In this document: positions 7,018 through 18,977 of the stretch, piece after piece
How positions within the stretch are numbered: position 1 is the stretch's first letter
Layout of the letters: each line of letters opens with the position of its first letter
Origin: Methanolobus sp. ZRKC5
GTDB taxonomy: Archaea > Halobacteriota > Methanosarcinia > Methanosarcinales > Methanosarcinaceae
Direction: 5' to 3'
Assembly: GCF_038446525.1 (NCBI RefSeq)
Contig: NZ_CP151792.1
Location: 186,001 to 250,000, forward strand
DNA: 64,000 nt
Notes under the pieces: model-generated
The model's input: the letters and a program-made list of their open reading frames with translations, nothing else
The model's database searches: none
What the model was told of the DNA's origin: nothing
Position numbers and translations under genes: made by a program

Positions 7018-8530
7018 GTGGAAAGTTTGTTCCATGAAGAGATGATACTTAGTAAAAACGGAATGAAGCCTAAGTGTTCTGATTACACTGGATACAGCAG
7101 GTACAGGCATAGAGCCTTTCGATTTTGTGCAATCTTTTTTTTGCTCTTGTTCCTGATTCCGACATGTAGTGCGAGCGAAATTGTGGAAATAAATCCTGTA
7201 AACACACCACATGGCGCTGTTATTCTTATTGTTGATGGACTCAGTTCCTGTTACGTTTATCCAGAGTATACGCCTCATGCGATTGATGGCAGTGAACTGG
7301 AAAAAGCTGAGCCTGAAAATATATTACAGATATTTGACCAAAGTTGCAGGGTACTGGATGTGACAGCCCCACAGACATTCACAGAAGGAGGGGACTCTGT
7401 TATTGCCACAGGATACTCAAAAGCTGACAGTGAACTTGTGGGCTCGTTTGGAACAACAATATACGATGTGGCGCATGAGAATGGATATCTCACTTTTCCC
7501 ATCATGGACAAAAGGAGATTCTTCAGGTATGCGCAGCAAGCAGAATGTGATAATCCATGATGCTAAGAATTCAATAAACAAACCGGAAATGCTCACAGAA
7601 ACAAATATGTTTTCCGGAACAGACAAAAGCATATCTCTTGACGTTGCAGGCCTGATGCAGGAACATTCTCTTGAATTACAGAAACAACTTGATCAGTATC
7701 CTGAAGGCTCACAGGAAAGATACAATATATATGATGTATGGGCTATTGAAACTGCTATTGACCTGATCGATACTATGGAAAATGAATATCCTGATCAATA
7801 CTACATCCTCACAATAAACGTAGGAGCTGTGGACTGTGCAGGTCATTACAAAAAGGATAGTGGATACATTGCAACTATAGAAGGTATAGACAATGCAACC
7901 ATGGATCTTTATGAGACATGCCAGGATAATGACATGGCCTTTATATTTACAGGCGACCATGGAATGAGTTTTTCAACAGCAGACTCTCGTGGAGGGCATC
8001 AATCTGATAAGTATTCCGTAATGACTGAATCACAGAAGGTACCGCTGGTAATTGCAGCAAAAGATGTTGATACCAGTGTGATAAAAGGCCAGTTTGGACA
8101 GGAAGATATCGCATCTACAATACTTGAAGTGCTAAACCTCCCCGGAAATCTGAGAGCTGCTGACGGTGCAGCAATTCCTATCAAAGATTATGTGAATTTG
8201 AAAGTCAACGTACCTGAAAAAGGAAAGCTCATCCTGATGAAAAATGATGCGATACTCTTTGAAAGCACCATCCAGGATACTATTTCATTGGTTGGACTGG
8301 AACAGGATACTGATTATATAGTCAAATATGCATCCACATCAGATTCAGAGGACGTAATGGAACAGGTCGTAAACACAGAATCCAGCATGATTGTGAATAT
8401 GTTCACCTCATCAAAACAATCCACAAACGATAGATCTTATAAAAACCCGCGCTATATTGTAGGAGGAACTCTTATTGGGGTTGTGAATCTTGCCGGACTT
8501 ATGATGATACGCAAGATCTTGAAAGAATAG
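7018..8530 (+). pseudogene. Alkaline phosphatase/sulfatase-superfamily protein, frameshifted
   Basis: Two overlapping frames (7018-7560 and 7403-8530) together encode one protein of about 500 residues. It has a hydrophobic export segment (FCAIFFLLLFLIPTCSA), the metal and nucleophile region LIVDGLSSCYV, the metal motif FTGDHGMS, then RGGHQSDKYS and a C-terminal membrane anchor (YIVGGTLIGVVNLAGLMMI). This fits an extracytoplasmic, membrane-anchored hydrolase of phosphate or sulfate esters; the substrate is unknown. One extra base in the A run near 7507 breaks the frame. Removing an A gives MDKGDSSGM, which joins both halves smoothly. Possible starts are GTG 7018, ATG 7042 and ATG 7063. The shift could be a real mutation, a sequencing error or, less likely, +1 frameshifting. 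Confidence 0.75.
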
Positions 8531-9789: not shown

Positions 9790-10011
9790 ATGACAGAAAC
9801 AAACATTGACGTTAGAGGACAAACATGTCCGGTTCCTCTTGTGGAATGTCGTAAAGCTCTCAAAAAAGCTGCTCCTGGCGATGAAGTCGTTATAGTGGGC
9901 ACCCACCCTGCTTCCAGAAAAGAAATCCCCATGGCGTGTGAGGCGATGGGACTTGAAATACTGGGAGTTGAAGAGAAAGACAACGAGTGGAAAATACGCA
10001 TCAAGCGTTAG
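9790..10011 (+). CDS. TusA/SirA-like sulfur carrier protein
   Basis: 73 residues with the TusA signature CPVPLVECRKAL near residues 14-25. Its first cysteine carries a persulfide in studied homologues. Full length for the family. It probably accepts sulfur and passes it to the partner proteins encoded just downstream. First gene of a four-gene same-strand cluster (TusA, DsrE-like, IscS-like, IscU-like) with gaps of 12, 49 and 9 bp. The ATG is preceded by a ggggaaattat spacer arrangement. Specific use in Fe-S cluster or thio-cofactor assembly is inference from the neighbours. Confidence 0.88.
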   Translation: MTETNIDVRGQTCPVPLVECRKALKKAAPGDEVVIVGTHPASRKEIPMACEAMGLEILGVEEKDNEWKIRIKR

Positions 10012-10023
10012 GGGGGGAATTAT

Positions 10024-10443
10024 ATGGCTGAAAAGGCCGTAATAATAGTTCACAGTGGGGATATTGATAAAATATACAGTGCCATGATAATTGCAAACGG
10101 CGCACTGTCAATGGGCATGGATGCTTCTCTTTTCTTTACATTCTGGGGTCTGGAGCGTCTGAAGAAGGACGGACTGGATAAAGGTCCTCTATCCAAGATG
10201 AATTTCCTTGGGCTTGGAAAATGGATGATCAAAAGCAGGATGAAAAAAGCCAATGTGGTTTCGCTTGAAAGAATGATGACAGATTTCAAGGAACTTGGTG
10301 GAAAGATCATTGCCTGTGAGATGACCATGGAAATCATGGGAATCGCACCTGAACAACTAAACCGGGAATGGATAGACGAATATGGCGCGGTAGGCACCTA
10401 CATAATGGAAGCAAAAGACGCTAAGATAACACTTTTCATATGA
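10024..10443 (+). CDS. DsrE/DsrF-family sulfur-relay protein
   Basis: 139 residues beginning EKAVIIVHSGDIDKIYSAMI, with the Rossmann-like DsrE pattern. FFTFWGLERLKK matches the DsrE2-type subfamily. A candidate carrier cysteine lies in GKIIACEMTMEIMGI near residue 99. DsrE-type proteins bind sulfur as cysteine persulfide and exchange it with TusA, encoded 12 bp upstream. A ribosome binding site (agggggggaa) overlaps the end of tusA, suggesting coupled translation. Cytoplasmic; no signal or membrane segment. Confidence 0.85.
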   Translation: MAEKAVIIVHSGDIDKIYSAMIIANGALSMGMDASLFFTFWGLERLKKDGLDKGPLSKMNFLGLGKWMIKSRMKKANVVSLERMMTDFKELGGKIIACEMTMEIMGIAPEQLNREWIDEYGAVGTYIMEAKDAKITLFI

Positions 10444-10492
10444 ATTATCAATTACATTTTTAAAAGTAAGAATAATTTCAGAGGAGAAATAG

Positions 10493-11659
10493 ATGTCCGA
10501 TAAAATGATATATCTTGACAATTCTGCCAGTACCCGATTAGATGAAAAAGTAATGGATGCAATGAAACCTTATTACTTTGACACCTATGCAGTGGCCACA
10601 TCCGAATTCGGATACTCCATGGGTATTGAAGCTAAAGAAGGACTGGAGGAAGCCAGAGAAACCATCGCGTCTTCACTTGGCGCTTCTGCAGAAGAAATTG
10701 TGTTCACATCCGGCGATACAGAATCAAGCAACATGGCTATCAAAGGTGTTCTAGCTGCTTTGAAGAAAAAGAAGGGAGAGCACATCATAGTATCTAAAAT
10801 TGAAGATTTCTCAGTCCTGAACACCGCCAAAAACCTTGAGAAAAAGGGCTACAGTGTAGATTATATCAGTGTTGATGCAGAAGGAATTGTGGACCTTGAT
10901 GAGCTTAAGAGTAAGATACGTAATGACACGGTCCTTGTATCCATTCAACATGCAAATCAGGAAATCGGTACCCTTCAGGATCTTGATGCAATTGCAAAGA
11001 TATGCAAGGAAAAGGATGTACTGTTCCATACTGATGCCACACATAGTTACGTGCGGGTTCCAATAGATGTATCAAAAACACCAGTAGACATGATCACCAT
11101 GTCCGCGCACACAATACATGGACCAAGAGGTGTCGGAGCATTGTATGTTCGCAAAGGCACACCGCTTGAGAAATGGATGGATGGTGGATTCCAGGAAACA
11201 AACCGTCGTGGAGGACTTGAAAATATTCCTGGTGCAGTAGGTTTTGCAAAAGCTGTGGAACTTACAACTCCAGAAGAAACTGAGTTCCTTAGATCACTGA
11301 GAGATTACACAATTAAGAGGATTTTTGATGAGATACCTCATGTGACACTCAACGGAAACAAAACACAAAGAACACCACAGAATGCCAATATAACTTTCCA
11401 CTATGTTGAAGGTGAATCAATGACATTGCATCTGGATATGAGGGGGTTTGCAGTGAGTACCGGATCAGCCTGCTTTAGCCGTTCACTTGAGGCAAGCCAC
11501 GTGATACTTGGTATTGGTGGTAACCACGAACGAGCACATGGCTCTATCAGATTCACATTTGGACGTTATAACAGTAAGGAAGATGTGGATGCTATTGTAG
11601 ATGCAATGAAAGAAGTAGTAGCCCAACTAAGGGCGATCAGTCCCCTGTTTAATAAATGA
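10493..11659 (+). CDS. IscS/NifS-like protein lacking the PLP-binding lysine
   Basis: The 388-residue protein aligns along its length with cysteine desulfurases (YLDNSASTRLDEKVM start, STGSACFSRSLEAS loop with the persulfide cysteine at residue 327). The PLP lysine is missing: SAHTIHGPRG replaces the usual SAHK pattern, with Thr207 (codon ACA, 11111-11113) at the E. coli Lys206 position. Two other cofactor-pocket residues also differ: Asp105 for His104 and Gln156 for Asn155. It should not form the normal internal aldimine. I recall that Archaeoglobus fulgidus IscS also lacks this lysine, so this looks like an archaeal class rather than a chance mutation. Neighbouring TusA/DsrE and IscU genes suggest it is a scaffold or persulfide carrier for Fe-S assembly. 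ATG 10493 follows aggagaaat. Confidence 0.85.
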   Translation: MSDKMIYLDNSASTRLDEKVMDAMKPYYFDTYAVATSEFGYSMGIEAKEGLEEARETIASSLGASAEEIVFTSGDTESSNMAIKGVLAALKKKKGEHIIVSKIEDFSVLNTAKNLEKKGYSVDYISVDAEGIVDLDELKSKIRNDTVLVSIQHANQEIGTLQDLDAIAKICKEKDVLFHTDATHSYVRVPIDVSKTPVDMITMSAHTIHGPRGVGALYVRKGTPLEKWMDGGFQETNRRGGLENIPGAVGFAKAVELTTPEETEFLRSLRDYTIKRIFDEIPHVTLNGNKTQRTPQNANITFHYVEGESMTLHLDMRGFAVSTGSACFSRSLEASHVILGIGGNHERAHGSIRFTFGRYNSKEDVDAIVDAMKEVVAQLRAISPLFNK

Positions 11660-11668
11660 GGTGAGAAA

Positions 11669-12304
11669 ATGAAATTCCCATATACTGAAAAGGTGCTTGA
11701 ACACTTTAAAAATCCCCGAAATGTAGGGAAGCTAGAAGAACCAGATGGAAAGGGACTGGAAGGCAGTCCTGCATGTGGGGACATGGTTGCCGTTTATTTG
11801 CAGGTCAACCCCGACACACTGGTAATTGATGATATCAAATTCGAATCATACGGATGTGCTTCAAACATTGCCACAGCTTCCATTATTACGGAAATGGCAA
11901 AGGGCAAGACTATAGAAGAAGCGAAGAATATCTCATGGCAGGAAGCTACAGATGAACTTGGAGGACTTCCACCTGTTAAAGCACACTGCTCTGTGCTTGC
12001 AGTTGAAGGGCTGAGATCCGCCATCCGTGATTATGAAGAAAAGCACGGTCTTGTAAGTGAACAGGAACCAAGCACAGTGGATGTTATCAGGAGCAGATTG
12101 AAACATGTCATGAACCCGATGGCTGGACTCGATATAGTCAGAACCGAGCTGGTGACTAAAATAGAAGTAGAAGAAGGAGTAGTCAGGATTCTTCTGGACC
12201 TGCCTTCCAATCACCAGTTTGCAGCAGCCATCAAAGAGGATCTTATTGAAAAAATAGAATCTCTCTGGGATGTAACTGAAGTCAATGTTGTCTTTACTGA
12301 GTAA
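11669..12304 (+). CDS. IscU-type Fe-S scaffold fused to a MIP18/NifU-like domain
   Basis: Residues 1-125 are IscU-like with all three cluster cysteines: SPACGDM (Cys36), YGCASN (Cys62) and KAHCSVLA (about Cys106). Residues 140-211 form a second domain (MNPMAGLDIVRTELVTKIEV, then LPSNHQFAAAIKEDLIEKI) resembling MIP18/DUF59 Fe-S assembly domains. An IscU scaffold builds [2Fe-2S] clusters on its cysteines with an IscS partner, whose gene lies 9 bp upstream. The fusion suggests that assembly and delivery are joined in one protein. Good ribosome binding site (gaggtga). A hairpin at 12313-12337 ends the operon. Confidence 0.85.
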   Translation: MKFPYTEKVLEHFKNPRNVGKLEEPDGKGLEGSPACGDMVAVYLQVNPDTLVIDDIKFESYGCASNIATASIITEMAKGKTIEEAKNISWQEATDELGGLPPVKAHCSVLAVEGLRSAIRDYEEKHGLVSEQEPSTVDVIRSRLKHVMNPMAGLDIVRTELVTKIEVEEGVVRILLDLPSNHQFAAAIKEDLIEKIESLWDVTEVNVVFTE

Positions 12305-13219: not shown

Positions 13220-13669
13220 ATGAGTAAACATAATTCGATAATAATTATTGGTATAACTTTGGTATTTATGTTAATGTTTGCAGGAGGCACTGCAATTGCA
13301 CCAGTGTCGTGTCCTCCAGTAGAACCGCTAACCGCCACCAATACTGTGAACACCATGCATACAATTACAGTGACGGAGGTTGACCCAGGCGACATCGTGA
13401 CGTTTGATGTACAAGGTGCAAACAAAGATGGTGGTTCTCTGTCTGCTAGTTCAACTGGAGTGGTCGTGTTCAGCTACACTGGAACATTTGTTGGAGACGA
13501 TACTATTCAAGTAAGTGTAGCAGATTCAGGTGGATCACTTAAATGTACTACAACAGTATACAAAACTTGGATATCAGAGGGTGGTGATATCCCAGAATTC
13601 TCAACCATTGCACTTCCCGTAGTTGCAATACTTGGACTGGCATTTTACTTCCAGCGCAGGAAAGAATAA
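13220..13669 (+). CDS. PEF-CTERM secreted protein
   Basis: 149 residues: an N-terminal signal peptide (IIIIGITLVFMLMFAGGTAIA), a beta-rich exported domain with two cysteines (SCPPVEP and LKCTTTV), and a C-terminal sorting tail. The tail starts IPEFSTIALPVVAILGLAF and ends in a basic patch (QRRKE). PEF-CTERM tails are recognised by archaeosortases, which cleave at the motif and attach the protein to the surface. The exported domain is not recognisable. ATG 13220 follows tggggga. The 16-kb neighbour carries almost the same tail, so the two belong to one local family. Confidence 0.85.
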   Translation: MSKHNSIIIIGITLVFMLMFAGGTAIAPVSCPPVEPLTATNTVNTMHTITVTEVDPGDIVTFDVQGANKDGGSLSASSTGVVVFSYTGTFVGDDTIQVSVADSGGSLKCTTTVYKTWISEGGDIPEFSTIALPVVAILGLAFYFQRRKE

Positions 13670-15856: not shown

Positions 15857-16673
15857 TTATTCTTTTCTACGCTGGAAGAAGAAAGCCAGACCAAGAATAG
15901 CAGCTACTGGAAGTGCAACAGTAGGAAATTCTGGAATATTTTCTTGCTGACAGTTGTAGCCATACTTGTAAATTGTGACATGTCCGTTATGTACATGGTC
16001 CACGTTTGGGTTTTCTATTATTATGTTATGAATATCGTTATCCAAACCAGTGATTTTCAATGATCTTATTTTTTGTGCACCGATTGGCTGGCCAGTTGGA
16101 TTGATTGCCCAAGTATCTCCTTCCCATACTTTTTCACCATCAACATAAACATTTGTATATCCATCGTTGGAATCACTGGCAAAAACGATGCAGAAGCAAT
16201 CTGTCGGATATGCAGTTGCTATAAACATGTATCCATTTTCATCAAGCACGGCAAGTCTTCCATCTGAGTTGGTCCATGTAGAACCTACAACACTATTGAT
16301 GAAACATGATTCATATCCACTTGTAATACTGTTGTGGTTGTAACTATTCAGCCTGATAAAAACACTATCAATAGCAATCTTGACAAAAAGTTGAGACCTA
16401 CATTTTATTAGGATCATTAATTTTGATTGTTGCCATTGATTGCTTTTTTGATTCTTAGGTTGTTAGTGAGCAAACATCTCCGTTTTGATTAAATCAGTAT
16501 CAATAGGCTAATTGTGGTAGGCTGAATAGTTACTTGTGGTTTCCATATGTCCATACGTCAAGGCCACACTCTCCATCGGTTAATTCTACAGATGCAGTTG
16601 CTGAAGCTGTTCCAATTATCATCAATGCTGCAAACAACATTAAAGATATTTTTATTAGTTTGTTATTTTCCAT
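15857..16673 (-). pseudogene. PEF-CTERM secreted protein gene split by a MITE
   Basis: Removing the MITE (16340-16533) and one copy of the 8-bp duplication ttgtggtt leaves 615 bp, a complete frame of 204 residues. It begins MENNKLIKISLMLFAALMII with a signal peptide ending around TASATA. The junction reads WTYGNHNSITSGYESC without a gap. It ends in the sorting tail IPEFPTVALPVAAILGLAF plus QRRKE. The exported domain is unrecognised. The ATG at 16673 is preceded by ggtggt. As it stands the ribosome would stop inside the element, so neither half can give a processed surface protein. Confidence 0.85.
16340..16533 (+). mobile_element. 194-bp MITE, subfamily B, copy 1
   Basis: Ends are gtaactattcagcct and aggctgaatagttac. 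The body differs from subfamily A at many positions (aacactatcaatagcaatc in place of aacgctatcaataacaatc), but the length is identical. Flanked by the 8-bp duplication ttgtggtt. It splits the PEF-CTERM gene at 15857-16673. Confidence 0.95.
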
Positions 16674-17028: not shown

Positions 17029-17434
17029 ATGAAATTCAGAGAACTCTCTGATGAGCAATGGAAGTTTATTAGACCACACTTACCTCCGCAACCAATAACC
17101 GGAAGAAAGAGAGCTGATGACCGTATGGTCATCAATGGTATTCTCTTTGTTCTGATAACCGGTTGCAGATGGGGAGATACGCCAGTTAGTTATGGTTCCC
17201 AGAACTGCCTGGAGAAGACTAAAAAGGTGGTCAGAGGAAGGAATATGGACTGTGATAATGGAATTCCTTCGGGATTCCGCTTACCAAAAAGGTAAGTTCA
17301 CCATGGATGTTGTATGTGTTGATAGCAGTTTCATTGAAACTAAAAAAGGGGGAGAAGATTCCGCATACAACGATCATAAAATTACGATTTTAAATTTGGA
17401 TTTGACACTTTGTACACATCTATCTTTATTTTAA
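17029..17434 (+). pseudogene. Broken IS5-type transposase
   Basis: The first frame gives MKFRELSDEQWKFIRPHLPP and GRKRADDRMVINGILFVL, the typical N-terminus of IS5-group transposases. A frame change near 17200 continues as TAWRRLKRWSEEGIWTVIM and ends soon after VVCVDSSFIETKKGGEDSAY, where the first catalytic Asp would lie. The rest of the DDE domain is missing. It is a relic about 130 codons long. No terminal repeats could be identified. Confidence 0.75.
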
Positions 17435-18176: not shown

Positions 18177-18977
18177 GTGAGAGTTAATCCAGACCTGAGT
18201 GTAAATGTAAATGACCTGGAAGAATTTCAGGAAATCATACAATTCAGATTCAATGATACCAGATACCTTGTACAGGCATTGTTACATGGTTCACTTTTTA
18301 GTGGTAATCAGGATAAATTGAGTGCTTTTAAAAAAGTGAATGGTCTTGAGAACAAGGATTACGAAAAACTTGAGTACCTTGGAGATTCGGTACTGGGCCT
18401 TATAGTTGCTGAATATGCATACCATAGCGAAGAGATCGATGAGTATGCAAGATCAAATGGACTTACTATCGAAGGTGTTTCCACAAAGATCAGGGAAGTA
18501 CTTGCTTCGAACAAGAACCTCAAACCTGTAGCCCAAAAGATCAAGCTTTCAAGGTTTGTATTGTCTGAAGAGCTGGTAAATATTGACGGAAAACTTTCGG
18601 ATATAATCGAAGCACTTATTGGAGCAATATATCTTGATGGCGGGCATAGCAAAAAAGACAGTAACTCCAATAACAATTATTTAATAGCAAAGGACTTTGT
18701 GTACAGGTTCTTTGATATAGACGATGCCCTTGGAAAGATACCTGTTTCCAATCCAAAGGGAAGAATACAGGAACTCTTCCACAAAACCGGGGCAGGGAAC
18801 CCATGTTATAGGCTCACGGGAGAGAACGGACCAGACCACGATAAGAATTATACTGTAGGGCTTTATCTGGACGAAGAGTTACTTGCAACAGGAGAAGGCA
18901 ACAGTAAAAGAAGCGCAGAGAAAGCTGCAGCTAAGAATTACCTGAAATCTATAGATGAATCTACTGACACGTCTTAA
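18177..18977 (+). CDS. rnc: Ribonuclease III (first copy)
   Basis: 266 residues. The nuclease domain (about 15-185) carries the signature YEKLEYLGDSVLGLIVAEYA and the second metal site LSDIIEALIGAIYLD, with the Asp and Glu ligands present. A dsRNA-binding domain follows (about 195-262: PKGRIQELFHKTGAGN, then KRSAEKAAAKNYLKS). It cleaves double-stranded RNA, probably rRNA precursors or structured transcripts, in the cytoplasm. Start GTG 18177 follows gtgagg. RNase III is uncommon in archaea, and a second, divergent copy lies at 39970. Confidence 0.88.
   Translation: MRVNPDLSVNVNDLEEFQEIIQFRFNDTRYLVQALLHGSLFSGNQDKLSAFKKVNGLENKDYEKLEYLGDSVLGLIVAEYAYHSEEIDEYARSNGLTIEGVSTKIREVLASNKNLKPVAQKIKLSRFVLSEELVNIDGKLSDIIEALIGAIYLDGGHSKKDSNSNNNYLIAKDFVYRFFDIDDALGKIPVSNPKGRIQELFHKTGAGNPCYRLTGENGPDHDKNYTVGLYLDEELLATGEGNSKRSAEKAAAKNYLKSIDESTDTS

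Follow-up and report, generated by a model that had tools for sequence, protein, structure and literature searches.

A Methanolobus IscS homolog without the pyridoxal phosphate lysine belongs to a widespread clade encoded beside TusA, DsrE2, and an extended IscU

A 64,000-nucleotide stretch of the Methanolobus sp. ZRKC5 genome (contig NZ_CP151792.1, positions 186,001 to 250,000 of the forward strand; hereafter the window) encodes, at 10493..11659 on the + strand, a 388-residue IscS homolog lacking the Schiff-base lysine of pyridoxal 5'-phosphate (PLP). The gene is the third in an operon ordered tusA-dsrE2-iscS-iscU, and the lysine was missing from all 93 distinct sequences of the clade to which the protein belongs. 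Members of this clade are termed T-type here, as distinct from K-type (lysine-bearing) IscS and from D-type IscS, the Archaeoglobus fulgidus clade with Asp at the position of E. coli Lys206. Judged from its sequence, T-type IscS is very probably incapable of PLP chemistry. On balance, and with modest confidence, we favor its being a PLP-free subunit that docks partners and relays persulfide within a module of TusA, DsrE2, T-type IscS, and an IscU fused to a DUF59 domain.

The iscS open reading frame is uninterrupted, starts with ATG, and is preceded by AGAGGAG, read directly from the sequence as resembling a ribosome-binding site (10480..10486, + strand); the product matches Pfam Aminotran_5 at 5e-79. 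Residues were numbered against E. coli IscS from NC_000913 (L034). The alignment bore out the initial annotation, which had been made from the window alone and had placed Asp105, Gln156, and Thr207 at E. coli His104, Asn155, and Lys206, with the persulfide cysteine, Cys327, retained. Asp105 (codon 10805..10807, + strand, as for all codons given here) replaces His104, which in E. coli IscS stacks on the PLP ring; the residue is Asp in 98% of the T clade and His in all K-type and D-type sequences. Gln156 (10958..10960) is Gln in 100% of the T clade, and Asn155 is found in 100% of K-type sequences. The Schiff-base lysine is replaced by Thr207 (ACA, 11111..11113), with Thr in 95% and Leu in 5% of the T clade. 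Three further changes had gone unremarked: Asp75 at E. coli Ala75; His184 (11042..11044) at Gln183, with His in 100% of T-type and Gln in 100% of K-type sequences; and Leu242 (11216..11218) at Thr243, which in E. coli touches the PLP phosphate of the other subunit and which is Leu, Val, Ile, or Pro in the T clade and Thr in all K-type sequences. Thus, 6 of the 10 PLP-pocket positions examined were changed, with Thr76, Asp180, Ser203, and His205 retained. Cys327 (11471..11473), corresponding to E. coli Cys328 in the motif STGSACFS, is Cys in every sequence aligned. Arg353 (11549..11551) corresponds to E. coli Arg354, which we take to be the arginine binding the substrate carboxylate, and is Arg in 93/93 T-type and 22/22 K-type sequences; in D-type sequences it is Leu, Val, or Glu.

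Relatives were sought with the patterns YAVATSEF and SNMA[IL]KGV, chosen to lie clear of the replaced pocket columns; YAVATS stands in the T clade where an FGNPSS-type motif is otherwise conserved. The search of genome contigs returned 147 relatives, of which 80 loci were kept, and these together with genomes of the genus and family gave the 93 distinct T-type sequences (66-100% identity). In E. coli numbering, used for the clade from here on, Asp180 is present in 100% and His205 in 97% of them, the phosphate-contact positions 75 and 243 vary freely, and the C-terminal SPL motif is conserved. The Asp/Gln/Asp/His core at 104, 155, 180, and 183 persists in two distant members in which residue 205 is Arg or Glu, one of which has Leu at 206. 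The organism labels comprise Methanosarcinaceae, Methanofastidiosa, Altiarchaeales, Heimdallarchaeota, Methanomassiliicoccaceae, Dehalococcoidia and Anaerolineae (Chloroflexota), Atribacterota, WOR-3, and Halanaerobiales; many members come from metagenome-assembled genomes (MAGs), so that individual labels may be wrong, and two are entered as chromosomes (L083 and L097). A separate draw of Chloroflexota found the T-type gene in 7 of 301 genomes, and the signature was verified in the six newly obtained ones. The distribution is patchy, as for an accessory module that moves horizontally.

Sequencing error, frameshift, or pseudogene formation as the cause of the lysine loss was ruled out, since all full-length family orthologs fetched carry the pattern and the Thr207 codon differs synonymously between species (ACA, ACT, or ACC). 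The median ratio of nonsynonymous to synonymous substitution rates (dN/dS) within the genus was 0.04, an approximate value as many dS values were near saturation. The proposal in the initial annotation that selection had moved the protein toward a PLP-free role is strongly supported by this low ratio, by clade-wide fixation of the changes, and by retention of the Cys loop and of the IscU partner.

As for the class of the protein, the IscS fold and the persulfide cysteine are present, and the Schiff-base lysine and the ring contacts His104, Asn155, and Gln183 are not. Its scores against the NCBIfam NifS (452 bits) and IscS (383 bits) models both fell under the curated cut-offs of 530.75 and 643.2 bits, respectively. 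An AlphaFold2 model built with the clade alignment had a predicted template modeling score (pTM) of 0.84 and a mean predicted local distance difference test score (pLDDT) of 80, with low confidence at segment 31-41 and in the Cys loop. The top Foldseek matches of the model were NFS1, A. fulgidus IscS-IscU, E. coli IscS, and E. coli IscS-TusA, with a TM score of ~0.86 against the NFS1 and IscS structures. The predicted fold thus fits the structures of both the IscS-IscU and the IscS-TusA complexes.

The initial annotation had likened the protein to A. fulgidus IscS, and this comparison holds for the likely mode of working but not for descent. A. fulgidus IscS (4eb5, 4eb7, 4hvk, and 4r5f) shares with the T type the IscS fold, the missing PLP lysine, the persulfide cysteine, and an IscU partner. 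In a tree computed without the pocket columns, however, T-type and D-type sequences each formed one clade, with support of 100/100 and 100/99, respectively. Membership of the window protein in the A. fulgidus clade is ruled out by this tree and by the Thr206, His205, and His183 of the window protein versus the Asp206, Asn205, and Ala183 of the D type, which also keeps His104 and has lost Arg354; Lys206 has been replaced by Thr or Leu in one clade and by Asp in the other, and the pocket has been remodeled differently. A smaller tree placed the two clades side by side at 18/69, and on these sequences the lysine may have been lost in one lineage or in two.

The other operon genes lie on the + strand with iscS, separated by gaps of 12, 49, and 9 bases. 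The first, tusA (9790..10011), encodes a 73-residue TusA sulfur carrier (Pfam TusA, 2e-22) with Cys13 in the motif CPVPL, a residue invariant in 80/80 homologs at T-type loci. It is followed by dsrE2 (10024..10443), encoding a 139-residue DsrE2-type sulfurtransferase (Pfam DrsE_2, 3e-34) whose Cys98, in IIACEMTM, is invariant in 77/77 homologs. The iscU gene (11669..12304) encodes a 211-residue protein in which the IscU domain (NifU_N, 7e-43) is followed by a C-terminal FeS_assembly_P (DUF59) domain (1e-13); the cluster ligands Cys36, Asp38, Cys63, His106, and Cys107 are invariant in 92/92 sequences. An iscU gene lies downstream of iscS in all 87 T-type loci with full context, with the C-terminal extension in every one; the extension was found in 0/15 IscU genes adjoining K-type IscS. 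At loci with enough flank, TusA adjoins iscS in 79/87 T-type and 22/24 D-type cases and DsrE or DsrE2 in 77/87 and 15/24, respectively, and both carrier genes are near iscS in 76 of the 87 T-type loci. The same queries and profiles found TusA or DsrE/DsrE2 at 0/19 lysine-bearing IscS loci. DsrE2 was found in 28 of 60 relatives, all in genomes having T-type IscS, and in one genome with a split operon (G028) the tusA-dsrE2 pair is retained elsewhere. Beyond the four operon genes, no fifth partner conserved across distant taxa was found in the T-type neighborhoods. At one locus (L114, 7158-8679), two tandem similar proteins (frames of 254 and 224 residues, with VFIIHT or VFIVHT near the start) are encoded between the T-type iscS and iscU.

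The D-type neighborhoods likewise hold TusA and often DsrE; they differ in having DsrE instead of DsrE2 and an IscU without DUF59. Three D-type loci carry enlarged IscU genes of ~450-460 residues (L131, 173-1558; L047, 1639-2985; L049, 1676-3019), and the one scanned, in L131, is a fusion to a pyridine-nucleotide disulfide oxidoreductase, plausibly a persulfide reductase.

In the relay that we favor, TusA Cys13 and DsrE2 Cys98 would gather sulfane sulfur whose origin is not free cysteine processed by the T-type IscS; it would instead be sulfide-derived, thiosulfate-derived, or supplied by another enzyme. It would then be handed to Cys327 on the mobile IscS loop, and the resulting persulfide would be delivered to the IscU active site for cluster assembly, a flow reversed relative to the usual IscS-to-TusA direction. 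In this scheme, that the protein holds no PLP, that sulfur flows in this direction, and that it passes physically between the subunits are inferred. Support comes from the fixation of the pocket changes in 93 sequences while Cys328 stays at 100%, the low dN/dS, the extended IscU downstream, the TusA/DsrE neighbors found with both lysine-less clades, the invariant carrier cysteines and IscU ligands, and the fit of the model to the complex structures. A structural parallel is E. coli IscS with TusA and IscU (3lvj and 3lvl), which shares the fold, the Cys328 loop, and both partners but is a PLP-dependent desulfurase donating sulfur to TusA, whereas in the T-type module TusA would more likely act as the donor. 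TusA and DsrE2 also form a paired sulfane-sulfur relay in the rhd-tusA-dsrE2 modules of sulfur oxidizers of the Allochromatium vinosum type; in contrast, the T-type carriers are linked to the cluster-assembly proteins IscS and IscU, and no conserved rhodanese was found nearby.

Several observations weigh against this relay. In E. coli, sulfur passes from IscS to TusA, opposite to the direction proposed. The T and D clades amount to at most two independent associations with TusA/DsrE, and the Fisher values for the TusA association (5e-15 and 3e-10), which ignore shared descent, therefore overstate the evidence. Among the 10 full-context loci without an adjacent DsrE2, 7, mostly from Methanococcoides, also lack an adjacent TusA. 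The clade-wide locking of Asp104, Gln155, Asp180, His183, and Arg354 suggests that the pocket is more than empty. The window genome, a single 3.05 Mb contig, also encodes a canonical lysine-bearing IscS-IscU pair elsewhere (L035, 48% identity), so the four-gene module may be dispensable. Finally, no biochemistry is known for the T-type clade, and its Methanosarcina acetivorans homolog IscS1 formed inclusion bodies (PMC7585200). In favor of the relay, a search of three MAGs (G243, G247, and G252) for further PF00266 matches as strong as IscS or SufS found none, with MAG incompleteness as a caveat, and possibly no desulfurase feeds the module there. In L083, L096, and L108, a canonical lysine-bearing iscS-iscU pair lies ~2 kb or less from the T-type operon.

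The chief rival to the relay is an A. fulgidus-like scaffold, in which Cys327 would ligate or cap the [2Fe-2S] cluster forming on IscU, with inorganic sulfide supplying the sulfur, and TusA and DsrE2 would serve another route and be merely co-regulated. The published view of A. fulgidus IscS is of this kind, and the role has also been suggested for M. acetivorans IscS1, both as summarized in PMC7585200; the conserved Cys loop, SPL motif, and IscU ligands agree with it. We consider it a minority prospect, though a substantial one, because TusA/DsrE adjacency extends to the A. fulgidus-type clade itself and is absent from the 19 lysine-bearing loci, so that the carriers would lack an explanation if the protein were solely a sulfide scaffold. 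Serving IscU as a persulfide or sulfide scaffold, the role suggested in the initial annotation, agrees with the data; that annotation made no mention of the tusA and dsrE2 genes, which point most specifically to where the sulfur comes from. Alternatively, the pocket could have been repurposed, with Asp104, Gln155, Asp180, and His183, together with Arg354, binding another ligand, for instance thiosulfate, a metal ion, or a small persulfide; the protein would then be either a sulfurtransferase active without PLP or a subunit that handles iron. Across 61-100% identity these residues hardly vary, unlike the drifting phosphate positions (75 and 243); they persist even with Leu206 and with Arg or Glu at 205, and Arg354 is universal in the T type and lost in the D type. 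Yet they may do no more than fill the former pocket with a structural network of hydrogen bonds, the identity of any ligand is a guess, and we regard this alternative as decidedly unlikely. A combined scheme, slightly less doubtful in our estimate, is a cysteine-independent Fe-S assembly in which TusA and DsrE2 would feed the T-type IscS, the old pocket (Asp104, Gln155, Asp180, His183, and Arg354) would bind iron, a small sulfur species, or some other new ligand, and one or two lineages would have acquired the coupling to TusA/DsrE as they lost the lysine.

Continued desulfurase activity, with PLP bound noncovalently or through another lysine, finds some encouragement in the largely retained Asp180, Thr76, His205, and Arg354. 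We think it most improbable, as the whole clade has replaced the Schiff-base lysine, the His that stacks on the ring, both residues contacting O3', and the Thr that contacts the phosphate in trans, and desulfurase activity is reported to be lacking in A. fulgidus IscS, which has fewer changes (PMC7585200). The chance that the protein is a decaying, functionless pseudo-enzyme is practically nil: the catalytic residues are lost and a lysine-bearing paralog is present in the genome, but the intact gene in a four-gene operon, its occurrence in many phyla, and the invariant cysteine oppose decay, which is already refuted by purifying selection.

A nearer precedent than A. fulgidus IscS is M. acetivorans IscS1 (MA0808), described as devoid of the PLP-binding residues including the lysine and suggested to act like A. 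fulgidus IscS (PMC7585200). IscS1 (42.2 kDa, with STGSACFS) and its long partner IscU1 (MA0807, 24.2 kDa) share these features with the window proteins, and by all signs isc1 is the orthologous operon, MA0808 being likened through its published description. Methanosarcina loci such as L102 and L103, ~70% identical to the window IscS, show the loop, the missing lysine, and the long IscU of the T-type/IscS1 group. The window IscS is therefore a member of a kind already noted but unstudied. As excerpted, that paper gives the genes linked to isc1 as four genes of unknown function and does not discuss the identity of TusA and DsrE2, the fusion of IscU to DUF59, how widely the clade occurs, or the locked pocket (PMC7585200). 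No description of a link between TusA/DsrE and PLP-less IscS was found in the openly readable literature searched, in which the T-type clade, its four-gene module, and its breadth appear undescribed. The present analysis adds the pocket signature shared across the clade, the association of TusA/DsrE with both lysine-less clades, the fusion of IscU to DUF59, and the spread across phyla. These findings bear on how anaerobes, and methanogens in particular, provide sulfur to Fe-S clusters without relying on cysteine: a widespread non-PLP "desulfurase" tied to named carriers and IscU offers a concrete four-protein system for reconstitution. The automatic annotation of T-type genes as cysteine desulfurases is probably wrong across many phyla.

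Elsewhere in the window, a gene of the sulfatase/metalloenzyme superfamily at 7018-8530 is broken into two frames (7018-7560 and 7403-8530), whereas at the matching place some dozen relatives carry a single intact frame of ~490-510 residues; the split reflects either a frameshift or a sequencing error near 7500. A remnant of an IS4/5-type transposase (17029-17434), with a DUF4096 N-terminus, is broken by several stops. Two small secreted-looking proteins encoded on opposite strands (13220-13669 and 15857-16417) have in common a PEF-CTERM-type C-terminal tail (IPEF-T-ALPV-AILGLAF-FQRRKE). At 18177-18977, this archaeon encodes a complete RNase III with both catalytic and double-stranded RNA-binding domains.
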